Under the pieces are notes generated by a model. It was given only the letters and a program-made list of their open reading frames with translations. It was not told the DNA's origin and did not search any database. From positions 1-46,147 of IMG/VR virus record IMGVR_UViG_3300017752_000026: 46,147 bases of DNA; one strand, given 5' to 3'. Source of the stretch: a virus. Of this stretch, positions 4,798 through 44,145 are shown piece by piece; position 1 is the first letter of the stretch, and each line of letters starts with the position of its first letter. The position numbers were made by a program, and so were the translations under genes.

Positions 4798-5349
4798 TTA
4801 TTCTACATAATTGGAGATAAAAGTCAACACCTTTTTTGTATCTTCTGCATGTTTATGTTCGAATGTCGTAATCTCTCCGTCATCAAACAGGTTTGGTCCA
4901 AACTCGGACTTGATGTTCTTCAGCTTCGTGAAGCGAGACTGGATGAATTGTTCAGACTGATCAGAGCCACGATCGACATATCGCTGCTCTCGGAGGTCGT
5001 CTGGGACAGTCAACTCGACAATCACCAGCTTATGACCAGCTGCTTTCACTGCTTGGAAGAATGAGACTGTGGTCAGGCGATCGCCTTCAAATACCACCGT
5101 GTCAGCAGGTTCACCCTCGAGATACTCGATTGCCTTTGGTTGGACAGCCATCGAGAGGCGATCGGTTCCAGAGAATACTTCGCCCTCCTCATACTTACCC
5201 ATGACAAAGATACCCTCGTCTCGAGCCAGATATCCATCCAGCAGGTCAACAGGCTTGTGTTCTTCCCACATCCAGTTTTGTAGAAACTGTTTCATTAATG
5301 TCGACTTCCCAGTTCCAGGAACACCGACGATTGCTAAAACGGTAGACAT
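4798..5349 (-). CDS. P-loop kinase, candidate 5-hydroxymethyl-dU DNA kinase
   Basis: The 183-residue product starts at MSTVLAIVGVPGTGKSTL, with AAAGGG upstream; the in-frame opening at 5409 is rejected because it would overlap the neighbour deeply. It has a Walker A (GVPGTGKST, residues 9-17), a DGYLARDEGIFVMGKY segment, and a Walker B-like strand ending VVFEGDRL, then an arginine-rich lid region (DLREQRYVDRGSD). The G-x-x-G-T-G-K-S loop with F-E-G-D-R-L is what I recall for the P-loop kinases that phosphorylate 5-hydroxymethyluracil in DNA in phages with hypermodified thymine. Its place as the last gene after a TET-type oxygenase and an amino acid:DNA transferase supports that role. A nucleoside or nucleotide kinase is the alternative. 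Confidence 0.75.
   Translation of the reverse strand: MSTVLAIVGVPGTGKSTLMKQFLQNWMWEEHKPVDLLDGYLARDEGIFVMGKYEEGEVFSGTDRLSMAVQPKAIEYLEGEPADTVVFEGDRLTTVSFFQAVKAAGHKLVIVELTVPDDLREQRYVDRGSDQSEQFIQSRFTKLKNIKSEFGPNLFDDGEITTFEHKHAEDTKKVLTFISNYVE
4800..4827 (-). promoter_or_regulatory. Early sigma70-like promoter
   Basis: Minus strand: TTGACT at 4827-4822, 16-base spacer, TAGAAT at 4805-4800, with a run of A upstream of the -35. It overlaps the stop of the kinase gene and drives the GIY-YIG gene, so it marks the end of the hypermodification operon. Confidence 0.65.
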
Positions 5350-5714
5350 AAATAAACCCTTTCTTCTGGTTCGCAATAAGGCAATCCCAGTTCCTTCTGC
5401 ACAAGCCAATCATATTCAATGACACCCGATGCTTTCACTCTCTTACCTGTATCTGGATCAGTCACACGGGTATCCCAAGCCTTGCGACAAACCCTTCTAA
5501 CCTTATCATCTGTGCCTGATACTGGATAGAAATAATTTATTGGCAACAACTTATCAAAAATTGGACAATATTTCATAATTATCTCATCACCCACTCCCAT
5601 GGCTTCCATCAATGGATTATCTTTAGCTTTTCGAACACCATCTACTGTTCTTCCATAAACGGCACTTGTTGGAGAATTTCTTCTCTTTGTGTTCTCTTGC
5701 TCTTTATCACTCAT
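5334..5714 (-). CDS. Degenerate zinc-finger-like protein in modification operon
   Basis: A 126-residue protein lying between the transferase and kinase genes, overlapping both (4 and 16 bases). The first 30 residues are polar (MSDKEQENTKRRNSPTSAVY). The centre reads KYCPIFDKLLPINYFYP and then VRRVCRKAWD; this looks like two zinc knuckles in which the second cysteine of each has been lost (C50-P-I-F53, C76-R-K-A79). The C-terminus has further cysteines (GLPYCEPEERVYLCLPF). I know no function. Constant company with the modification enzymes suggests a DNA-binding or scaffold role. Confidence 0.65.
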   Translation of the reverse strand: MSDKEQENTKRRNSPTSAVYGRTVDGVRKAKDNPLMEAMGVGDEIIMKYCPIFDKLLPINYFYPVSGTDDKVRRVCRKAWDTRVTDPDTGKRVKASGVIEYDWLVQKELGLPYCEPEERVYLCLPF

Positions 5715-6724
5715 AACGGTAAAACTCCCTCTACATTTTGTTCATCACTATACATCATCTCCAGACGATCCAGCTGTCCCGTCTTTAGAAATGAATCAAA
5801 CTTACTCTTGTTTATACCAGTTTTAGTTACAAAAGTCAAGTCTAAAGTCTCTGCTCTGGCTTGCCATAGCACTTCCCATTCGATACCAGACCACCCATCC
5901 TGCTCGACTTTCATAATCTCCTCGGCTTGGCGATCCAGATAGTAACCGAGATAACGACCATGATGCGTCCGAAACAGCTTCTTAAAGGAGCAGAGACACG
6001 TCTCCATGGAGAAATAGTCCAACTGGTCAGCAAGGTGTGGATATTCAGTTTTCATCTCGAGCAACAGATAACGAGCATTATCCTCGAGCCTCGTGTATTC
6101 CTTATCAGTCAACCTTGTATCGACTTTATCTTCCTCACCGAGAGCATACAGCCATCCATTACGGTGCGAGCGAGAGCCAGAGTAATCATTCAGCATCAGA
6201 CTGGTTGACTCCATGGGGATATCTGCTGTATGTTTCAGCTGCTGCATATAAAACCAAGTCGAGTAGCGACCAAACTTATACAGACCATCTTTCAGAGCCA
6301 CCCAGAGATTATCGAAGTTCTGCTCCTCATTGTCTCCGAAATAAGACTCCAGCTTCTCACGCTGCGTTCCCTTGCCCACAAACTTCTCATACGAGGCATA
6401 CATGTCTGCCAGATGTCCCTTGCTCCACTTGGTGTCGGTCTGATAGCGGAGGCGTTTATAGTTCTCCGTGTTCCAAGCATCCATCCGATCGAATGTAGCC
6501 AACTCGAAATCAGGAAACTCATTCATCAGCACCCACGAGGTCGGGAGATAGTATGTGTTGCCATACAGCCACGAGAACCAGAGTCGTTGCTCGTCATTGT
6601 GCTCATAGCGTTCGTTGATATAGTTAGCGAGCCAGATGGCAGGGTCACAGTCCTTGTATTGCAACGACCACGCATACCAACGCTTGAATGCTTCACGACG
6701 ATTCTGGCGTTCTCTATAATCCAC
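5711..6724 (-). CDS. Amino acid:DNA transferase (aGPT-pyrophosphorylase-like)
   Basis: A 337-residue protein rich in tryptophan and tyrosine. It has a conserved-looking core NDEQRLWFSWLYGNTYYLP (about 43-61), MNEFPDFELATFDRM, LRYQTDTKWSKGHLADM, KFGRYSTWFYMQQL and LNDYSGSRSHRNGWLYALG. I recognise this as the amino acid:DNA transferase family (alpha-glutamyl/putrescinyl-thymine pyrophosphorylase clades). In phages such as ViI, M6 and phiW-14 these enzymes displace pyrophosphate from 5-(pyrophospho)methyl-uracil in DNA with an amino acid or polyamine. It follows the GNAT gene with an 11-base overlap and precedes the zinc-finger-like gene by an ATGA. Recognition is from memory of the motif pattern; the amine donor cannot be told from sequence. 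Confidence 0.78.
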   Translation of the reverse strand: MDYRERQNRREAFKRWYAWSLQYKDCDPAIWLANYINERYEHNDEQRLWFSWLYGNTYYLPTSWVLMNEFPDFELATFDRMDAWNTENYKRLRYQTDTKWSKGHLADMYASYEKFVGKGTQREKLESYFGDNEEQNFDNLWVALKDGLYKFGRYSTWFYMQQLKHTADIPMESTSLMLNDYSGSRSHRNGWLYALGEEDKVDTRLTDKEYTRLEDNARYLLLEMKTEYPHLADQLDYFSMETCLCSFKKLFRTHHGRYLGYYLDRQAEEIMKVEQDGWSGIEWEVLWQARAETLDLTFVTKTGINKSKFDSFLKTGQLDRLEMMYSDEQNVEGVLPL

Positions 6725-7274
6725 GTGGCTCTTTCCAATAGTCCTTCACACAACCACCCATACCTTTCTTGGTGACTTCCTTTTCCGTATATGCATCCCA
6801 TTCCCAGACGAGGTCACTGATACTTGGTCCAGCGAGGCGTCCAATAGACAGATAGGTGTCAGATGCTTGGATACCCCATGTCTTGAAACCCACCTTCTGG
6901 TATGCAGTCAGAGCAGGAGCATTGATTGATACTCGGAAGTGTTTTAGATTCGCCATATATGCACGATGGACAGCGTCCTCGCAAAGAGCGCGAAACACAC
7001 CCTTGCCTCTCGCGTCTGGGATAGTGACGATCCATTTTAGATTGGCATAGTTCTTCAGCATCTTGGTAGCAATTACACCCAAGATCTTACCATCCTCGTA
7101 AAATGCACGGATGCAGTCATGACATTTATCGTCAATGATACCTCGTTTCATCTTAGAGAAAAATTTGTCTGTTGTCTTGTGTTGCTCACAAAACTCAGAC
7201 CAGTCGTCAAACGACAGGTTGGAGATCCCGTCCGTCGTAACTGACTCTGTGGGGTTCAGTAGTGATTCCAGCAC
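6714..7274 (-). CDS. GNAT-type N-acetyltransferase
   Basis: A 186-residue protein whose centre has the GNAT acetyl-CoA loop: VTIPDARGKGVFRALCEDAV (about 85-104; the R-G-K-G of the Q/R-x-x-G-x-G/A motif), followed by a strand and ALTAYQKVGFKTWG, the usual motif B (A-x-x-x-Y-x-x-x-G-F). The start is probably the GTG at 7274, 68 bases inside the amidotransferase gene; no better in-frame start is seen before the core. In a hypermodification operon it could acetylate the amino group placed on DNA or a precursor. A protein-acetylating role is equally open. Confidence 0.75.
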   Translation of the reverse strand: MLESLLNPTESVTTDGISNLSFDDWSEFCEQHKTTDKFFSKMKRGIIDDKCHDCIRAFYEDGKILGVIATKMLKNYANLKWIVTIPDARGKGVFRALCEDAVHRAYMANLKHFRVSINAPALTAYQKVGFKTWGIQASDTYLSIGRLAGPSISDLVWEWDAYTEKEVTKKGMGGCVKDYWKEPRGL

Positions 7275-7845
7275 GTTTCACAATATCCTTCGTTGATGTA
7301 ATAATATTACCATTCTTAAGCACTGTCTTATATAGAGGTCGCTTGCCATTACGATACCAGAACATCATACCATCTGAGTGTAACTCAATGACCGCCATTG
7401 ACGAGTCTGCCCACTCGGTGAGTGGGTTTAGACCAGCATCCAACGTATGATTTATCAGTTCAGTATCATTATGTGTTTCAGTCTCGTATCCATATAGATC
7501 CTTCCAGTTTTCAGGAAGTTCCTGTGAGATAACACCGTTGTGGACGATAGAGACTTTGTCATTAATCTGAATCGGTTGATTGTAGCGAAGGTCGCTTGTG
7601 GAGTAGCGACAGTGTCCAATTAGGTAAAGGTTGCCATCCTCATTGATAAACTGCTCCATATCAGACAGAGGAGTGAATTCAGGAGATGGGACAGGTTCTT
7701 TGAGGGTGACAACCTTACCATTTGACACATACGACAACCCAGTCGCATGCATACCTCGAATACGAGATTCGAGAAACACGTTCCTTACAAGTTCAAGTTG
7801 TTCAGGTGTAGGAGACTTGAGTGCAGCACCGATAACGGCACACAT
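7207..7845 (-). CDS. Class-II glutamine amidotransferase (Ntn hydrolase)
   Basis: The 212-residue product has cysteine as residue 2 (MCAVIGAAL), which becomes the N-terminal nucleophile after methionine removal. It carries the family marks IRGMHATGLSYV, GHCRYSTSD with a following NQPI, and IVHNGVI. This is a free-standing glutaminase domain of the PurF/GlmS type without the acceptor domain those enzymes carry, so it must hand ammonia to, or hydrolyse a gamma-glutamyl amide on, another partner. Start and TET-gene stop form TAATG. In this operon it may supply ammonia for an amination step or trim a glutamyl-type modification; both are inference. Confidence 0.85.
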   Translation of the reverse strand: MCAVIGAALKSPTPEQLELVRNVFLESRIRGMHATGLSYVSNGKVVTLKEPVPSPEFTPLSDMEQFINEDGNLYLIGHCRYSTSDLRYNQPIQINDKVSIVHNGVISQELPENWKDLYGYETETHNDTELINHTLDAGLNPLTEWADSSMAVIELHSDGMMFWYRNGKRPLYKTVLKNGNIITSTKDIVKRAGITTEPHRVSYDGRDLQPVV

Positions 7846-9149
7846 TAGAATAGATCCTCGAGCGTGGCGACACCAGCCGAGTTTGGGTGATACTTAGATA
7901 GCATATCCTGACCACCGTGTTCAGCGAGATAGTCATACCACTCTTGAGTCTCCCACATATTAGGAGAGACACCATTCCAGAGAGGACGCCACTCGGCATG
8001 CTCTTCATTCAAGCGACGATGGTCGACAAAGTTCTTACGCAATGTCTCGTATTCAAACGAACCAAGATTCGCCATCTTCTCGCGAGCATACGCAACGATA
8101 GAGATACGGATCGGATCGTCGCCGAGGATCTGGGTGTTACCGTGAATGCCATCGTGGTTGTTCACGAGGAGCAAGTCTCCTGGATGCAACTCAACAGCAA
8201 TACGATACTCTGGGAGGACAAACAGACAGCCATCCCAGCTTTTCTTACCATCAGGACTGATACAGCTGATGTTAGAGAAACCCTTTGTGAAGTCACCAGC
8301 ATCACGGTGAGCAGCAGTGCGGAATGTCTTGTTGACAGTCAGCGTTGTATAGGGTGTTTCAGGGACGACAAACTTCGGATCGATAGCATTTGTAAACTCG
8401 ATCTGTTTACTGTAGCGTTCGGGGAGCAGTTCCTCAAACTTACGAGCCAGCGTCTGTAGATAAGGATAGGACAGAGAGAACATATCTGGGTTCTTCTCTG
8501 TGTAAGATGTAGCACGACCATATGGGATGCGTGGATAACGATCGAACCAGCCAGCGATACCAGAGTTTACTGTATTAGCATACGAGGTGTCGGAGATATA
8601 TTTCTTCACCATATTCTTAGCTTCGACTTTGCGTTCTTTAGCTGACAGTGGACGAACCGAGTCGAGCCACCAGTCAAAGAATTCAGAGTATTCTACACCA
8701 GTCTTTTTGATATTGTCGCGCAACCATACACGTCCACGACCAGCATCATCTGGCTTGTGGCGAGCAATAGCGTTTTCAATAGCATCGAAGTCTGCATCTA
8801 GTGAGGAATCGGGAGCAGTAAAAATCGCGTCGAGAACATCCTCCTGCAGAGGTGTAACCCAATCGCGTTTACCATTCTGACCCGCACGTGGTCCAGCAGC
8901 CAGCCCACGATTCTGTGTCTCGATAGCTGCCTCATATAGACCAGCATATGCACCTTCCTGTTCCTCTTTGGAGAAAACTCCCTTGCGAAACTTGAAGATG
9001 ATATTGTCTTCATTGTTGACCTCATTCACTCTATCGAGAGCATACAGGTCTGTGTCGGCTGTGATAATCTGATCATAGTGACTATCATCGAGCCACTGTC
9101 CGAGCAGCTGCTCACAGTCGTGTTTTTCAATTGTAAGTTGTTTTACCAT
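7845..9149 (-). CDS. tet: TET/JBP-type 2-oxoglutarate dioxygenase acting on DNA bases
   Basis: Start at the ATG at 9149 (MVKQLTIEKHDC) because TAGGAGTGAAA precedes it; the opening at 9206 has no ribosome site. The 434-residue protein has an N-terminal IIFKFRKGVFSKEEQEGAY / NRGLAAGPR region and a C-terminal double-stranded beta-helix: TAAHRDAGD with iron ligands H281 and D283, SWDGCLFVLPEY, LHPGDLLLVNNHDGIHGN with distal ligand H336, and PIRIS with R348 for 2-oxoglutarate. This block order is that of phage TET/JBP enzymes, which oxidise the methyl group of 5-methylcytosine (phage TETs) or thymine (JBP) in DNA. With the amino acid:DNA transferase and kinase downstream, thymine is the favoured substrate, but 5mC is not excluded. 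It is co-transcribed from the 10532-10560 promoter. Confidence 0.85.
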   Translation of the reverse strand: MVKQLTIEKHDCEQLLGQWLDDSHYDQIITADTDLYALDRVNEVNNEDNIIFKFRKGVFSKEEQEGAYAGLYEAAIETQNRGLAAGPRAGQNGKRDWVTPLQEDVLDAIFTAPDSSLDADFDAIENAIARHKPDDAGRGRVWLRDNIKKTGVEYSEFFDWWLDSVRPLSAKERKVEAKNMVKKYISDTSYANTVNSGIAGWFDRYPRIPYGRATSYTEKNPDMFSLSYPYLQTLARKFEELLPERYSKQIEFTNAIDPKFVVPETPYTTLTVNKTFRTAAHRDAGDFTKGFSNISCISPDGKKSWDGCLFVLPEYRIAVELHPGDLLLVNNHDGIHGNTQILGDDPIRISIVAYAREKMANLGSFEYETLRKNFVDHRRLNEEHAEWRPLWNGVSPNMWETQEWYDYLAEHGGQDMLSKYHPNSAGVATLEDLF

Positions 9150-9157
9150 TTTCACTC

Positions 9158-9358
9158 CTACCAATGTCTGATCACACCTGCAATAATAAAGAAGCAGGTG
9201 ATCCAATTCACAAATTGTAGTAACATGCGAAGATACAAACCGTTCTTCGCTTGTTGCATAGTCAGAACAGGGACTTTGGGTTCATCCTCATCTGTTCTGC
9301 CAATATAATAGTCGAGCGCACGAGCGACGACTTTCTCCCATGTGCGATACTCAATCAC
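9158..9358 (-). CDS. Small membrane protein, 66 aa
   Basis: A soluble N-terminal half (MIEYRTWEKVVARALDYYIG, then DEDEPKVP) is followed by one C-terminal membrane segment (LLQFVNWITCFFIIAGVIRHW, about 46-66). A tail-anchored topology with the bulk in the cytoplasm is likely. It overlaps the UDP-sugar dehydrogenase gene by four bases and sits nine bases before the TET gene. Function unknown. Confidence 0.65.
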   Translation of the reverse strand: MIEYRTWEKVVARALDYYIGRTDEDEPKVPVLTMQQAKNGLYLRMLLQFVNWITCFFIIAGVIRHW

Positions 9359-10089
9359 ACGAAGGTCTCATTGTAATCTACTGCCTCTTGTAAGATAGAC
9401 AGGTTACAGTTGAATAATTTAGATGTCTCGAGCAATGCCGATGTATCCTTTGGGAAGCAGTGACCACCAAACCCTCGCTCCTCTGTGATGTCCATATGAC
9501 TATCACCGATGCGTGGATCTTGCGCCACTAAATTCTTTACACTTTCATATTCTACACCAGATGCCTTACAAAAGTCAAACAATTGATTGAAAAAAGATAC
9601 TTTTGTTGCAAGAAAGCTGTTGACAGTATATTTCATAACGATAAGTTCTTCAGCATCTGCCTTATACATCTTACGACCAGCTTCCCAGAATATGCTTGCC
9701 CAGAAATCAGTGTCACCACCACCGAAGTAAAATGCCTTACTTGTTGCGAAATCTTCGAGTGCTGTGGCTGCACGAAGAAACTCAGGACTGAAGGTCACAT
9801 TCAGCTTCGGGAATCGCTCGCTTATCTGCCGCCAACCCTCTAGTGAGATCGTGCTTTTGATAAGGATTGGGATATTTTTCGGGCAATCCTTCAATACACT
9901 GTAGACATTCTGCATATTACAAGAGCCATCTAGGTATTTTGGTGTAGATACTGCAACGATTACAGCATCAGGGTTGCCAATAGTATTATCATTGAAGGCG
10001 GGGTCAACCACCGTCACATCGTGCTTGCCACTTAGCACCATCTCATGTGCCTTGCCGACAAACCCATAACCAAATACTGTAATCTTCAT
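9355..10089 (-). CDS. UDP-glucose/GDP-mannose dehydrogenase family, short form
   Basis: A 244-residue NAD-dependent sugar-nucleotide dehydrogenase. The Rossmann loop is GYGFVG (7-12); VAVSTPKYLDG, STISLEG and FSPEFLRAATALEDF are family strands; the catalytic cysteine is C211 in GFGGHCFPKD. Full-length UDP-glucose 6-dehydrogenases are about 390-450 residues. This protein stops after the central helix and lacks the C-terminal UDP-binding domain, so activity on UDP-sugars may need a host partner or another substrate. In other phages such genes feed capsule-like or DNA-sugar chemistry. It is coupled to the dCMP deaminase gene by ATGA. Confidence 0.85.
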   Translation of the reverse strand: MKITVFGYGFVGKAHEMVLSGKHDVTVVDPAFNDNTIGNPDAVIVAVSTPKYLDGSCNMQNVYSVLKDCPKNIPILIKSTISLEGWRQISERFPKLNVTFSPEFLRAATALEDFATSKAFYFGGGDTDFWASIFWEAGRKMYKADAEELIVMKYTVNSFLATKVSFFNQLFDFCKASGVEYESVKNLVAQDPRIGDSHMDITEERGFGGHCFPKDTSALLETSKLFNCNLSILQEAVDYNETFV

Positions 10090-10505
10090 TCTATATGTCC
10101 AATATCCACACCAGCAGTCACGAGGAATACGTTTCCTGCATCATTCTTATATTGATTTTTCCAAACTACGCGAGAAATACCAGATTGGTAGATAAGTTTC
10201 GCGCAATCAAGGCAAGGTGAGTGAGTGGTGTATAAAGTAGCACCCTCACAACTCTCACCAGACCGAGCCACCTTCGCGATGGCATTTGTTTCAGCATGCA
10301 GCACTTCGCGTTTAGTGACTGGCATATTACCAAACTCATCTGTAGTTTCACATTCGTTCGTCCAACCAGACGGCATGCCATTATATCCGATAGAGATGAT
10401 GCGATTATCTTTTACGATAACTGCTCCCACCTGTAGTCGTTTTGCCGAAGACAACTGAGCATAGACTTCAGCTGCCTTCATGTGTGCTTTATCCCATTTA
10501 TTCAT
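10086..10505 (-). CDS. cd: dCMP deaminase
   Basis: A 139-residue zinc deaminase of the T4 Cd type, converting dCMP to dUMP for thymidylate synthesis. The zinc site is H70-A-E72 with the proton-shuttle glutamate, and P97-C98-L-D-C101. GYNGMPSG near residues 40-47 is the usual substrate loop. T4 Cd is longer (193 residues) because of an allosteric insert that seems to be missing here, so dCTP/dTTP control may differ. It is the first gene after the promoter at 10532-10560 and so heads the hypermodification operon, consistent with a need for dUMP and thymine nucleotides. Confidence 0.92.
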   Translation of the reverse strand: MNKWDKAHMKAAEVYAQLSSAKRLQVGAVIVKDNRIISIGYNGMPSGWTNECETTDEFGNMPVTKREVLHAETNAIAKVARSGESCEGATLYTTHSPCLDCAKLIYQSGISRVVWKNQYKNDAGNVFLVTAGVDIGHIE

Positions 10506-12052
10506 TACAACTCCAGTTTCTTTATTTTATAATCATATATGAATTTTTCCAAAATGTCAAGGGAAGGTGAGAAAGAACCCAACTCTTTGTATGACTTCAT
10601 CATATCATTGAGTGTGTATCCCGCGACGAACCATTCATAGAATTTATAAGGGTTTACACCAAATTGCCAGTGATCATCAGCATACATAAGACAAGCCTTC
10701 ACGATTGCCTCCCAAGAATTGTATGCATCATTCTCCCAAGGTATAGAGAAATAATCGTCAGAGACGCCTGTTGTTAATAACCTAATGTAATTCTTAATCT
10801 CCATCGAAATATTATCGTCTCTATAAAGAGATTCAATTCTTTCGTCATTTTCAATATAGATATCATTCCATGTATTATCTGAATATCCATAATTCTTGTA
10901 ATCTCGAGAGAAGACTGATGTGTTAATTAATGTCCCCTCTCGAGGTATGAATAATGGATTAATCGTCAACGACTCTCCCTGCCAATTGTTTTTAATCCAA
11001 CTCCACGTATTATCTATCGTCTCCTCAGTGTCGTGAGGTAGTCCAATAATGAGACTGATCAGACCTTTATAGAAACCTGTGTGTTTTTTCATGTATTCTT
11101 TTGTATAGAGGATAGTCTCTTTCAACTTATCAGGATCCATACCTTTACCGATTGACTTAGCTGATGCATGATTAAAGGATTCTATACCATAGAAGTGACC
11201 ATTGTAATTCATACGTGCGAGATGCTCAATGTCCTCTGGTCTAGCAGCAAGGAGGTCTGCTCTGATATAACCATGAAAATGTGGTTTGAAATCTAACTGC
11301 TCGACTACATCAGCATATTTAATTACTTTCTCAGTATAATCATTAAATGTCTCATCAGCAATTGAATATTTTGTGATGCCATATAGATCGAAATTTGTCT
11401 TTAAGTTTTTCTCGAAGTCGACAGCTGACCGAGTATGATCGTCACGGACACCTAAAATTGGGAATGTGCAAAACTTACATTTGAAGATGCATCCTCTAGC
11501 ACATTCCATAGTCAGAGATTCATTAGGGTCTAGAAAGTCTCTTTCCTCATATTCGATAGACAAATCATCCATTGGGAAGGATGGATATTCATGTAATGCT
11601 TCAATGACACGGCGAGTTTCACCCTCTTCATTCCATGGTCTATCTTCATATTTTACAGTCCCGCGAAGTATCTCTATCATTGCCTTTTCAGCAAATCCTA
11701 CAACGTGATAATCTACATTCAGTTGATGTATTGTTTGGAATGATTGACTGCCAGCCACAGTCTTGATATCAGGATAGTTTTCCTTGATCCAATCTACAAA
11801 CTCACACACTGTAGGGAAGTTGATATTGAATGTGCCTCCGAAACCTATCACCTCTGTGTCAGCGTTCACGCGACTTTTGACTAATGACTTGAGTTCATCC
11901 AATGACCATGACATCAAGAAGTCAAACACTTCTACATCATAGCCATAATTTCTCATGAATGTGGCAATGCGGTGTGTCCCTGCACTTCTGCGGACAGATG
12001 GGACACCAGTATTTAATTCAAACGTGCCGCCAAATAAAAGCGCATCGCTCAA
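10505..12052 (-). CDS. B12-type radical SAM protein, paralog 3
   Basis: The 515-residue protein has an N-terminal Rossmann-like region of the cobalamin-binding type (strands EVIGFGGTFN, IKTVAGSQSF, YHVVGFAEKA) and a radical SAM core with the cluster motif C-I-F-K-C-K-F-C after MECARG, near residue 183. Later marks are SIADETFND, YGIESFNHASAKSIGKGM and LIIGLPHDTEETIDN. It shares these with the genes at 31381-32940 and 32937-34556, so the three are paralogs. Family members do methylations, ring rearrangements or C-C bond formation. The N-terminal domain lacks an obvious D-x-H-x-x-G B12 motif, so B12 may be bound base-off without that histidine or not at all. It overlaps the SGNH-like gene by ATGA. 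Confidence 0.82.
   Translation of the reverse strand: MSDALLFGGTFELNTGVPSVRRSAGTHRIATFMRNYGYDVEVFDFLMSWSLDELKSLVKSRVNADTEVIGFGGTFNINFPTVCEFVDWIKENYPDIKTVAGSQSFQTIHQLNVDYHVVGFAEKAMIEILRGTVKYEDRPWNEEGETRRVIEALHEYPSFPMDDLSIEYEERDFLDPNESLTMECARGCIFKCKFCTFPILGVRDDHTRSAVDFEKNLKTNFDLYGITKYSIADETFNDYTEKVIKYADVVEQLDFKPHFHGYIRADLLAARPEDIEHLARMNYNGHFYGIESFNHASAKSIGKGMDPDKLKETILYTKEYMKKHTGFYKGLISLIIGLPHDTEETIDNTWSWIKNNWQGESLTINPLFIPREGTLINTSVFSRDYKNYGYSDNTWNDIYIENDERIESLYRDDNISMEIKNYIRLLTTGVSDDYFSIPWENDAYNSWEAIVKACLMYADDHWQFGVNPYKFYEWFVAGYTLNDMMKSYKELGSFSPSLDILEKFIYDYKIKKLEL
10532..10560 (-). promoter_or_regulatory. Early sigma70-like promoter of modification operon
   Basis: Minus strand: TTGACA at 10560-10555, 17-base spacer, TATGAT at 10537-10532. 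It lies inside the 3' end of the radical SAM gene and is 27 bases from the dCMP deaminase start. The next same-strand promoter is at 4827-4800, so one transcript can cover dCMP deaminase through kinase. Confidence 0.7.
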
Positions 12053-19495: not shown

Positions 19496-20479
19496 TTATG
19501 CGGCTGAACCCCATACATCTTGCCAATCACCCTTCAATGCACCACGTGCATAGTCGGTTGCTCTGTTTTCAAAAAAGTTTGTATGTGTCGGAGCGTTAAT
19601 CATCTCCTCCACCCACGGCAATGGGTTCTTTTTGACTTTGAAAATACCCTTGAGACCAAGACTGATCAGTCGACGGTCACAAATGTATCTAATATATTTC
19701 TTAACTTCTGCTGAGGTTAAGTCTTCCATCTCACCCATAGCGAATGCGAGGTCGATAAACTTGTCTTCGAGTTCAACCATTTTCTCGGCAATGCTATAAA
19801 TCTTACCTTTGAGGTCATCATTCCAGATCTCAAGATTTTCTTCAACATATGTGCGGAACAACATAATCATTGACTCAGCATGTTGTGTTTCGTCAACGAT
19901 TGACCAAGTAACAATTTGACCCATGCCTTTCATCTTACCGTGGCGTGGGAAGTTCAGGAGCATAATAAATGATGAGAATAATTGCATACCTTCAGTGAAT
20001 GCAGAGAATGCAGCAATGTTAGTCGCTACAGTTTTCTTATCCTGATCAGCGTTAGACATTTCCATGAAATATTCATGTTTGTCTTTCATAGCTTCGTATT
20101 CTAGGAACTCGCTGTATGTTGACTCAGGCATACCCAGCGTTTCAATAAGGTGTGAGTAGGCAGCAACGTGTAGTGCTTCACGAGCAGCAAAGCCAGCCAG
20201 CATCATACGAACTTCAGGCTGCGGGAAGTGTGGCAGGTAGTTGGTAACATAACCGCCAGCAACATCGATGTCACCCTGTGTGAAGAAACGGAAAATGTTT
20301 GTGAGAAATGATTTCTCATGGTCTTGAAGTTTGTTTTTCCAGTCTTTAACATCTTCAGCCATTGGCACTTCAGTATGCAGCCAGTGTGACTGTTCATGCT
20401 TCAGCCATGCTTCGTATGCCCATGGATAGTTAAAAGGTTTAAAGTAGTCGCGTTCGTCTTGCAGGTTTAATTTAGACAT
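19496..20479 (-). CDS. nrdB: Ribonucleotide reductase small subunit (class I)
   Basis: A 327-residue beta subunit holding the diiron-tyrosyl cofactor. The iron ligands are visible as an acidic residue in TQGDIDVAGG, E-x2-H in AAREALHVAAYSH (with a tyrosine four residues after the histidine in the radical position), a glutamate in FTEGMQLF, and E-x2-H in VDETQHAES. It forms the nrdB end of a nucleotide operon with NrdA, glutaredoxin and ThyX. It overlaps the methyltransferase gene by eight bases. The C-terminus (RGALKGDWQDVWGSAA) is the peptide that normally docks on NrdA. Confidence 0.95.
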   Translation of the reverse strand: MSKLNLQDERDYFKPFNYPWAYEAWLKHEQSHWLHTEVPMAEDVKDWKNKLQDHEKSFLTNIFRFFTQGDIDVAGGYVTNYLPHFPQPEVRMMLAGFAAREALHVAAYSHLIETLGMPESTYSEFLEYEAMKDKHEYFMEMSNADQDKKTVATNIAAFSAFTEGMQLFSSFIMLLNFPRHGKMKGMGQIVTWSIVDETQHAESMIMLFRTYVEENLEIWNDDLKGKIYSIAEKMVELEDKFIDLAFAMGEMEDLTSAEVKKYIRYICDRRLISLGLKGIFKVKKNPLPWVEEMINAPTHTNFFENRATDYARGALKGDWQDVWGSAA

Positions 20480-21059
20480 TTGTTTTCCTATAAATTGATG
20501 TGTAAGAGATATTAGTCATAATATTTCCCTCAATCTGTTCGTTATGATAATTAAAATAATCAACCAATTCTAAGTTTTTCCAGTGAGCAGCAAAAGTTGT
20601 TGCAGAATTTGCAAAAACGCAATCAAGTAAAACTAGATATCCATCATCATTTAAGTAATCTGATGCATTAGAAAATATATGTTTGTGTAATCTCCATTTT
20701 TCATCAATAACTATGCGTTCTGGTGAATATACCATTTCGTTAAAATAAAATGTATCATTACAAAACCATGGTGGATTAGCAAAAATAAGGTCGAACTTTT
20801 GATCAGGGGGAATACTTTTAAATCCATCTGAAATATATGTTTTAAATTCACTGTTCTTTGGTAGTGCATATTCATTAAAGTCAGAGAAGTGTATTTCTTC
20901 ACAAAATTCTGTTTCCAGCATATGCAAGCCAATCGAACCTTCACCAGCGCAAAGTTCTAAGACCTTTTTGTGATTTCCTATTCTTTCTCGAACAGCCTCG
21001 ACAAAATACTCTTTGATGAGACTTCCACCACCATCATTTTGATCCAGCAAATGTTTCAT
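20472..21059 (-). CDS. SAM-dependent methyltransferase with NPPW motif
   Basis: I start at the ATG at 21059 (MKHLLDQNDGGGS), which limits the overlap with the glutaredoxin gene to 26 bases; the frame is open back to 21182. Motif I is VLELCAGEGSIGLHML, motif II is the acidic FSDFN, and the catalytic motif IV is LIFANPPWF. N-P-P-W/Y is found in N6-adenine, N4-cytosine and HemK-type glutamine methyltransferases. The size (195 residues) and lack of a target-recognition domain favour a HemK- or RsmC-like enzyme over a restriction-type DNA methylase. The gene looks more AT-rich than nrdA and nrdB on either side, suggesting a later insertion. Confidence 0.72.
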   Translation of the reverse strand: MKHLLDQNDGGGSLIKEYFVEAVRERIGNHKKVLELCAGEGSIGLHMLETEFCEEIHFSDFNEYALPKNSEFKTYISDGFKSIPPDQKFDLIFANPPWFCNDTFYFNEMVYSPERIVIDEKWRLHKHIFSNASDYLNDDGYLVLLDCVFANSATTFAAHWKNLELVDYFNYHNEQIEGNIMTNISYTSIYRKTNV

Positions 21060-21252
21060 CCCATTCAGAAAATGATTGTGATAGTTCGAGTAATTCAGTA
21101 TAACCGCCGATATGTTTATCACCTGCATAAATCTGTGGGACTTGACCTGTGGGTTGATGTTCCTCCACATAATCAATTTCAAAGCCAGTCAAAAATTCTT
21201 TTGCTTGCTGACAATATGTGCAGTCATCTCTTGACATAATTTTAACAACCAT
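21034..21252 (-). CDS. nrdC: Glutaredoxin
   Basis: A 72-residue glutaredoxin with redox site C-T-Y-C (residues 11-14) in MSRDDCTYCQQAK, the cis-proline loop QVPQIYAGDKHIGGY, and a C-terminal helix. It would reduce the NrdA active site during ribonucleotide reduction, as T4 NrdC does. C-T-Y-C differs from the usual C-P-Y-C. It lies between the QueC-like gene (TAATG) and the methyltransferase gene. Confidence 0.9.
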   Translation of the reverse strand: MVVKIMSRDDCTYCQQAKEFLTGFEIDYVEEHQPTGQVPQIYAGDKHIGGYTELLELSQSFSEWDETFAGSK

Positions 21253-41693: not shown

Positions 41694-41848
41694 TAGTAAT
41701 CGAGCCTCCTAGCTTCTACGATTTGACGACATTGATCTAACCATTCTTGATAAGATTTATTGTTTTTATATAATTCACGCTTTTCAGGTGTCCCGAAATA
41801 TTCCAATACCCAAAGAGCCTGATCATATGTTTTTCCGTGATATGACAT
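41693..41848 (-). CDS. Hypothetical protein, 51 aa
   Basis: ATG at 41848-41846, inside the end of the TauD-like gene; TAA at 41695-41693. The product (MSYHGKTYDQALWVLEYFGT...) has tryptophans spaced as in the 41-aa protein downstream (QEWLDQC, QEYWLEV), hinting that the two are related. Its AGGAGG near the end serves as ribosome site for the next gene. Confidence 0.55.
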   Translation of the reverse strand: MSYHGKTYDQALWVLEYFGTPEKRELYKNNKSYQEWLDQCRQIVEARRLDY

Positions 41849-42719
41849 TGCGTTCCTCAATAAATTTTTTAACCATTCCAGTATTACTTATAGGAAATGT
41901 ATAGCGATGTAAGAGCCTTTTCTCAAATACTTCATCAGGTCTTACGGGTCTTCTATGTAATGTCAGTAATTGATCAGACAATACGATATCACCAACTTCC
42001 CATTCATGATGATAGATGAATTCTTCTTGGAATAGATATTCCTTTAAGTCATCATAAAGTTCAGTATCTTTACCTTTGACCTCTAATTCATTATTGTCAT
42101 AAAAGTATAGTCCCTTCGTCCCAGCATTATTTTGCTGCTCTATATACATATGATACACGGGAGCATCGGTCTTTCTAACAAACTCTAGCTGATCAGGATT
42201 GTCTATATCTGCCCAGTTATGCATATTATACCTATAAGAACAATGGACTCCTGACAATCGTTGCTTTAGGTCGTCAGGCATTTTCTCATAGGCGACTGCA
42301 GTATTCAACCAAGAAGTTACCGTTCCTTCGACTCCACGAATACCCTGTAGTGCGACACCGTCTGCTCTGTTTGGACCATTAAGGTTTGCATGCCAGTCTA
42401 ATTTACCACGAGGAAAAATGCCAGTATAATCGTCATCAGAATTCTTTTGAGCAGTCACTCTCTGGACAGGGAATTGATCACATTCCCATGGGTCTTTATA
42501 TTGATCCCAAATATCATAGTCACCTTTCTCGTTCCAAACGCATTGTTGGAAATTAGCTATAGTATGATTCATACCATGAATCAATCTTGCAAACTTGTAT
42601 GATTCGGTAGGTTGCTTCTTGATTACAACAACCAACTCTTTCTTCAGGATTTCTAATACATCTTGACATGCATCATGTGTGAGATTATCTAGATCTAAAT
42701 TAATTACTTTATGTGTCAT
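41823..42719 (-). CDS. TauD/TfdA-like oxygenase with HxN metal motif
   Basis: The 298-residue protein has the shape of the TauD/TfdA Fe(II)/2OG family: DWHANLNGPNRAD with the first histidine (H110), GVEGTVTSWLNTAVAYEKMP, the late LSDQLLTLHRRPV with the distal H255, and LLHRYTF with R272 for 2-oxoglutarate. In place of the usual H-x-D/E it has H110-A-N112. Asparagine is a weaker or absent metal ligand, so the protein may be inactive, may use a different coordination, or may do halogenase-like chemistry. It is coupled to the SDR-like gene (ATGA). Confidence 0.72.
   Translation of the reverse strand: MTHKVINLDLDNLTHDACQDVLEILKKELVVVIKKQPTESYKFARLIHGMNHTIANFQQCVWNEKGDYDIWDQYKDPWECDQFPVQRVTAQKNSDDDYTGIFPRGKLDWHANLNGPNRADGVALQGIRGVEGTVTSWLNTAVAYEKMPDDLKQRLSGVHCSYRYNMHNWADIDNPDQLEFVRKTDAPVYHMYIEQQNNAGTKGLYFYDNNELEVKGKDTELYDDLKEYLFQEEFIYHHEWEVGDIVLSDQLLTLHRRPVRPDEVFEKRLLHRYTFPISNTGMVKKFIEERNVISRKNI

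Positions 42720-43299: not shown

Positions 43300-44145
<846 letters not shown>

Follow-up and report, generated by a model that had tools for sequence, protein, structure and literature searches.

Introduction

The current view of phages M6, ViI and PhiW-14 is that 5-hydroxymethyldeoxyuridine (5hmdU) is made at the nucleotide level and that a kinase and alkylamine transferases act next (PMC6449724). Base J of kinetoplastids is made by oxidation of thymine already in DNA by a TET/JBP enzyme (JBP1/2), after which the product is decorated by a glucosyltransferase. Iyer et al., in 2013, reportedly predicted hydroxymethylpyrimidines made by TET/JBP enzymes as starting points. For actinophages, ParB, a tet-like protein, aGPT-Pplase2 and a 5-hmU kinase have been proposed to form a thymidine-hypermodification system (Rhodococcus phage Tonitrus; PMC11955845), so that TET-based thymidine hypermodification is not a new idea. 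Here we analyse a gene cassette of this kind in the IMG/VR virus record IMGVR_UViG_3300017752_000026. The window, meaning the whole 46,147-nucleotide stretch, covers 46 kb of the genome of a larger T4-like phage, and its minus strand encodes a TET/JBP oxygenase (hereafter TET), a glutamine amidotransferase, a GNAT acetyltransferase, an amino acid:DNA transferase (ADDT) and a P-loop kinase.

Like the window, the Tonitrus and Mycobacterium VioletZ-Nigel group has adjacent genes for a TET-like oxygenase, ADDT and a kinase of the Ploopntkinase3 type (PF18751, 4e-72 for VioletZ). However, the actinophage cassette begins with a ParB-like gene and its phages are not T4-like. In VioletZ the terminase is the next gene, the cluster has no amidotransferase, GNAT or amidoligase, and its TET matches that of the window weakly (29% over 96 residues). 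The Caulobacter isolate Cr30 carries homologues of TET (44% identity), ADDT (25%) and the kinase (34%) within ~ 9 kb, but these genes are dispersed, no amidotransferase homologue was found, and a canonical ThyA is present; a weak match to the TET-associated glycosyltransferase described below follows its ADDT gene. M6, the ViI-type phage SFP10 and PhiW-14 share with the window ADDT and the logic of a kinase followed by amine transfer on 5hmdU. Unlike the window, they make 5hmdU as a nucleotide with a ThyA-family enzyme, and M6 and SFP10 have HMUD1/HMUD2 kinases instead of Ploopntkinase3; a tblastn search of all three found no TET. Base J differs in that the window has a phage operon with an amine module in place of the glucosyltransferase. 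What is new here is the amidotransferase with an acylating slot, the occurrence of the cassette in a large T4-like group that includes the window, and the exchange of amine for sugar modules beside TET.

Results and discussion

A conserved cassette of probable DNA-modification enzymes

The cassette probably hypermodifies thymine in phage DNA after replication, by way of TET, the kinase, ADDT and GNAT. From gene content we infer each chemical step, the thymine substrate and the final base.

The oxygenase matches Pfam Tet_JBP at 67.9 bits, against a curated cut-off of 34.9 (E = 7.8e-19), and phrog_24024 at 1.4e-150. The HxD...H Fe(II) ligands and the arginine that binds 2-oxoglutarate (2OG), which are H300, D302, H355 and R367, are invariant in 35 aligned relatives. 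The initial annotation had correctly named these residues as catalytic, numbering them H281/D283/H336/R348; the two numberings differ by 19 residues, as the start in homologues is the internal Met20 of the 453-aa open reading frame (ORF). The family profile matches human TET2 in the PDB at 1.2e-6, and the top Foldseek matches of the predicted structure (mean pLDDT 78.5) are TET2, CcTet and NgTET1, with low TM-scores of 0.25–0.46. When the TET, amidotransferase and ADDT proteins were searched one by one against PDB sequences, none gave a match, and the kinase gave chance-level matches only. The oxygenase would act on a 5-methylpyrimidine in DNA. A search of the cellular genome collection confirmed no relative of TET, and for this reason no host is assigned. 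In one 164.7-kb contig (L062:6962-7558) a second, different 2OG-Fe(II) oxygenase (2OG-FeII_Oxy_5, 5.8e-22) lies between TET and the amidotransferase.

The amidotransferase keeps Cys2 (exposed by an MC start) and the GHCRYST, HNG and ND motifs, as a class-II enzyme should. ADDT scores 60.9 bits (PF18724; curated cut-off 26.2) and matches phrog_3271 at 2.5e-53; it is 25–30% identical to the proteins of SFP10, VioletZ, Montesquieu and Cr30, and would transfer an amine to a phosphorylated hydroxymethyl base. Both the oxygenase and this 337-aa protein, on whose families the initial annotation depended, therefore lie inside DNA-modification families (Tet_JBP and ADDT). The kinase, recognised earlier by its GTGKST and FEGDRL motifs, has PF18751 (Ploopntkinase3) as its best match, with 54 bits against a cut-off of 27, and besides its Cr30 homologue it resembles the kinases of Montesquieu (33% identity) and VioletZ (26%). 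It is also matched by phrog_800, labelled 'terminase small subunit', and the record of M6 gp54 (L094:41685-42248) carries the same label though Pfam identifies that protein as a 5-hmdU DNA kinase. On these kinases the label is likely to be a spreading misannotation.

All five genes (TET, amidotransferase, GNAT, ADDT and kinase) are under purifying selection, with a ratio of nonsynonymous to synonymous substitution rates (dN/dS) of ~ 0.05–0.2 relative to their relatives; the outlier, 0.39, comes from one near-identical amidotransferase pair. The cassette is not an assembly artefact, because it recurs in the independent contigs L005, L006 and L012, with TET identities of 85–99%.

Linkage was measured by searching IMG/VR with the ADDT protein, which gave at least 80 loci, and conversely by a separate search anchored on TET. 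The counts refer to the matches listed, which are the best ones, come from one broad clade and include a few loci that overlap on the same contig, and so they show linkage rather than prevalence. TET and the amidotransferase were present in 47/47 ADDT loci with at least 3.5 kb upstream, and the kinase in 42/46 with at least 2.5 kb downstream. Conversely, 52 of the TET loci had 6 kb or more of downstream sequence, and in 50 of these the amidotransferase, ADDT and kinase were all found. The amidotransferase directly follows TET in nearly all relatives.

Between the amidotransferase and ADDT there is a variable slot, which we compared in 97 distinct cassettes. GNAT-A alone fills it in 64, and GNAT-B, the type of the window, alone in 5; most of the remainder have an Amidoligase_2-like protein paired with either GNAT-B or a small phosphatase. 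None of the 97 cassettes lacks an acylating or amide-forming enzyme (GNAT-A, GNAT-B or amidoligase), where the amidoligase call is based on two members above the Pfam cut-off, the rest being tied in by alignment. This constancy suggests that the amine added by ADDT would then be acylated, and that the amidotransferase would supply ammonia or handle a glutamine-derived group.

Exchange of the amine module for a glycosyltransferase

In the two exceptional TET loci, L180 (12115-13574) and L197 (11341-12797), the block from amidotransferase to kinase is replaced by 335-aa and 150-aa proteins. A search with the 335-aa protein gave 32 loci. The swap is noted at L180, L197, L201-L230, L170 and L188. 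TET precedes the 335-aa protein in all 31 loci with enough upstream sequence, while ADDT, the amidotransferase and the kinase are absent from all 17 with enough downstream sequence; because all three are missing together, they belong to one branch. A SprT-like flank gene lies downstream in 16/17 swap loci, and the same gene follows the kinase in 73/88 amine cassettes.

The model of the 335-aa protein (pLDDT 82.7) matches T4 beta-glucosyltransferase (BGT; 1bgu) with a TM-score of 0.66 (E = 6.9e-9); a weaker match is T4 alpha-glucosyltransferase (AGT) bound to DNA containing 5-hydroxymethyluracil (HMU; 1y8z). Some sugar glycosyltransferases such as Gtf3 reach equal E-values but lower TM-scores. 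The modelled fold thus argues strongly for a DNA glucosyltransferase. On a TET tree without long branches there were four module changes, at least three of them forced; the eight changes on a first tree were set aside in favour of this lower figure, as that tree had very long branches.

That TET stays fixed while amine and sugar modules alternate is as expected if it supplies a hydroxymethyl base in DNA, which would be the common denominator of both modules. Tentatively, TET could turn genomic thymine into HMU in many uncultivated T4-like phages and serve there as a fixed hub for swappable modules. One would be the amine module of amidotransferase, kinase and ADDT, leading to a so far undescribed base that is N-acylated or peptide-like; the other, BGT-like, would give base J or a glycosyl analogue. 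The BGT-like module is a candidate phage system for base J (glucosyl-5hmU) and, if so, a direct parallel to the kinetoplastid one. Phage C48C1 (L003:19908-23355) has TET, then a 344-aa protein of no assigned family, then UDP-galactopyranose mutase; these may represent a third type of decorating module, a galactofuranosyl one.

Probable origin of the hydroxymethyl group

Two Pfam families were sought in 28 TET-bearing virus records, among them nine contigs of 105–171 kb and complete isolate genomes: PF00303, which comprises thymidylate synthases and pyrimidine hydroxymethylases, and PF00145, the C5-cytosine methyltransferases. PF00303 was absent from 27 of the records. Its sole match, in Cr30, scores 373 bits and looks like a canonical thymidylate synthase, whereas each of the four 5hmdU-type control phages (SFP10, Montesquieu, M6 and PhiW-14) gave a match to a divergent member, at 51–86 bits. 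Five of the largest contigs encode ThyX (E < 1e-40), so these phages can make ordinary dTMP. PF00145 was found in none of the 28, a search that covered virus records only.

No ThyA-family gene was found in the window, itself incomplete. The initial annotation had also pointed to the absence of a C5-cytosine methyltransferase there; we rejected a case built on that absence, which is weak by itself in a 46-kb fragment, and used the large relatives instead. They likewise stand in for the rest of the genome in the search for a dUMP hydroxymethylase or methyltransferase beyond the window. Their lack of both families, together with their ordinary thymidylate synthases (ThyX, and ThyA in Cr30), supports the earlier suggestion that TET replaces the ThyA-type step. 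With TET the only visible source of the hydroxymethyl group and no visible phage source of 5-methylcytosine (5mC), the simplest substrate to assume is thymine in DNA, on which TET would act. The evidence from the large relatives carries over to the window by homology only.

Alternatively, TET could oxidise 5mC made by a host or an unrecognised phage methyltransferase, and the kinase and ADDT, or the glycosyltransferase, would decorate 5-hydroxymethylcytosine. The nearest solved structures to the oxygenase are indeed 5mC oxidases, and the glycosyltransferase of the swap loci shares its fold with T4 BGT, which is an enzyme of hydroxymethylcytosine. Yet T4 AGT was crystallised with DNA containing HMU (1y8z), so a glycosyltransferase does not force cytosine, and it is in 5hmdU phages that ADDT and the kinases associated with it are known. 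Given also the complete absence of PF00145, we regard this alternative as unlikely.

It is more improbable still that a divergent phage enzyme encoded elsewhere makes the hydroxymethyl group at the nucleotide level, with TET carrying out another oxidation or a subsequent one. In its favour, the window is incomplete and relatives have a ThyX whose product might in principle have changed, but the search that found no ThyA-family gene in 27 records found one in all four 5hmdU-type controls, and in VioletZ a TET-like gene occurs with ADDT and a kinase although PF00303 is absent. Least probable of all is action on tRNA, protein or a small molecule, with a resemblance to DNA modification at family level only: PHROG names for TET relatives include 'queuine tRNA-ribosyltransferase', and GATase and GNAT are general-purpose families, but ADDT, a phage family, matched nothing in 14 control genomes, TET lacks a confirmed cellular relative, the fold and profile matches of the oxygenase are DNA oxidases, and relatives have a DNA-glucosyltransferase-like fold in the same slot.

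Several points weigh against post-replicative hypermodification of thymine. Phage TETs with tested activity reportedly act on 5mC (Burke et al., 2021). The TETs of the largest contigs are only ~ 50% identical to that of the window, the longest contig of its own sub-clade is 67.8 kb, and IMG/VR contigs may be incomplete; these phages may also have an unrecognised methyltransferase or hydroxymethylase. Furthermore, neither HMUD1 (PF18748), which M6 gp54 matches, nor HMUD2 (PF18747), which the SFP10 kinase matches, is among the matches of the window kinase, and its identification with a known 5hmdU kinase was rejected on these Pfam assignments. The hypermodification pathway of TET, ADDT and kinase put forward in the initial annotation gains good support from genomics, but its kinase is not of the M6/ViI type and the idea itself was already in the literature (PMC11955845).

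Proposed pathway

In the post-replicative thymine pathway, TET would first convert thymine in DNA to HMU by hydroxylating its methyl group, and the Ploopntkinase3 enzyme would phosphorylate the hydroxymethyl group. ADDT would then displace the phosphate with an amine, which would be an amino acid or perhaps ammonia that the amidotransferase frees from glutamine. Finally, GNAT would acylate the exposed amine, a step that in relatives may fall to the amidoligase as well or instead. The purpose is likely to be protection from restriction. If correct, the modified base is made by editing thymine after replication, a strategy known from kinetoplastid base J, and not through a modified nucleotide pool, and the edited thymine becomes a handle for different chemistries. 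Such enzymes could also yield new thymine-specific DNA tools. Cr30 is a culturable relative in which the central claim can be tested.

Gene run and neighbouring genes

The genes named in the initial annotation are all present as an overlapping minus-strand run of ORFs, from dCMP deaminase to the kinase, and the five enzyme families exceed their curated Pfam cut-offs (Table 1). Its description of the run as promoter-bounded is borne out only in part: a promoter-like site does lie upstream, but the region holds only modestly more sites of this kind than expected (35 observed versus 22), and a search of the 3′ end of the run revealed no terminator on the minus strand. The degenerate zinc finger assigned to the 126-aa protein is plausible by eye but unproven, with no Pfam match and a weak PHROG match; this protein is kept in only some relatives (61–63% identity in L007, L013 and L014). 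The dehydrogenase-like gene is the upstream neighbour of TET only in the sub-clade of the window.

Table 1. Features of the minus-strand gene run, in order along that strand.
Feature	Position in window	Strand	Remarks
Sigma-70-like promoter	10532..10560	−	TTGACA-17-TATGAT, 11/12 matches
dCMP deaminase	10086..10505	−	3.8e-26; first gene after promoter-like site
UDP-glucose/GDP-mannose dehydrogenase-like	9355..10089	−	UDPG_MGDP_dh 5.1e-22
TET/JBP 2OG-Fe(II) dioxygenase	7845..9206	−	453-aa TTG ORF; likely start 9149, 434 aa
Free-standing class-II (Ntn) glutamine amidotransferase	7207..7845	−	212 aa; GATase_6 5.3e-10
GNAT acetyltransferase, slot type GNAT-B	6714..7274	−	186 aa; Acetyltransf_1 3.8e-8
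ADDT / aGPT-PPlase2 type	5711..6724	−	337 aa; Pfam ADDT (PF18724) 1.9e-16
126-aa protein, possible degenerate zinc finger	5334..5714	−	Lar-like phrog_5558 0.004 (weak)
P-loop kinase Ploopntkinase3	4798..5409	−	likely start 5349, 183 aa; Pfam 2e-14

A radical SAM protein is encoded between ADDT and the kinase in L052 (11020-12450), and a homologue of it (30% identity), which also gives a B12-binding match, is located immediately upstream of the window operon, at 10505-12052; it is possibly a further tailoring enzyme. Elsewhere in the window, a small-domain methyltransferase (MTS, 2.4e-7; 20472-21182) that has no C5-cytosine family match adjoins the ribonucleotide reductase genes. The window also encodes a TauD-type dioxygenase (6.8e-18; 41823-42719) and a fatty-acid desaturase-like protein (1.9e-7; 43366-44145), both unusual cargo for a T4-like phage.

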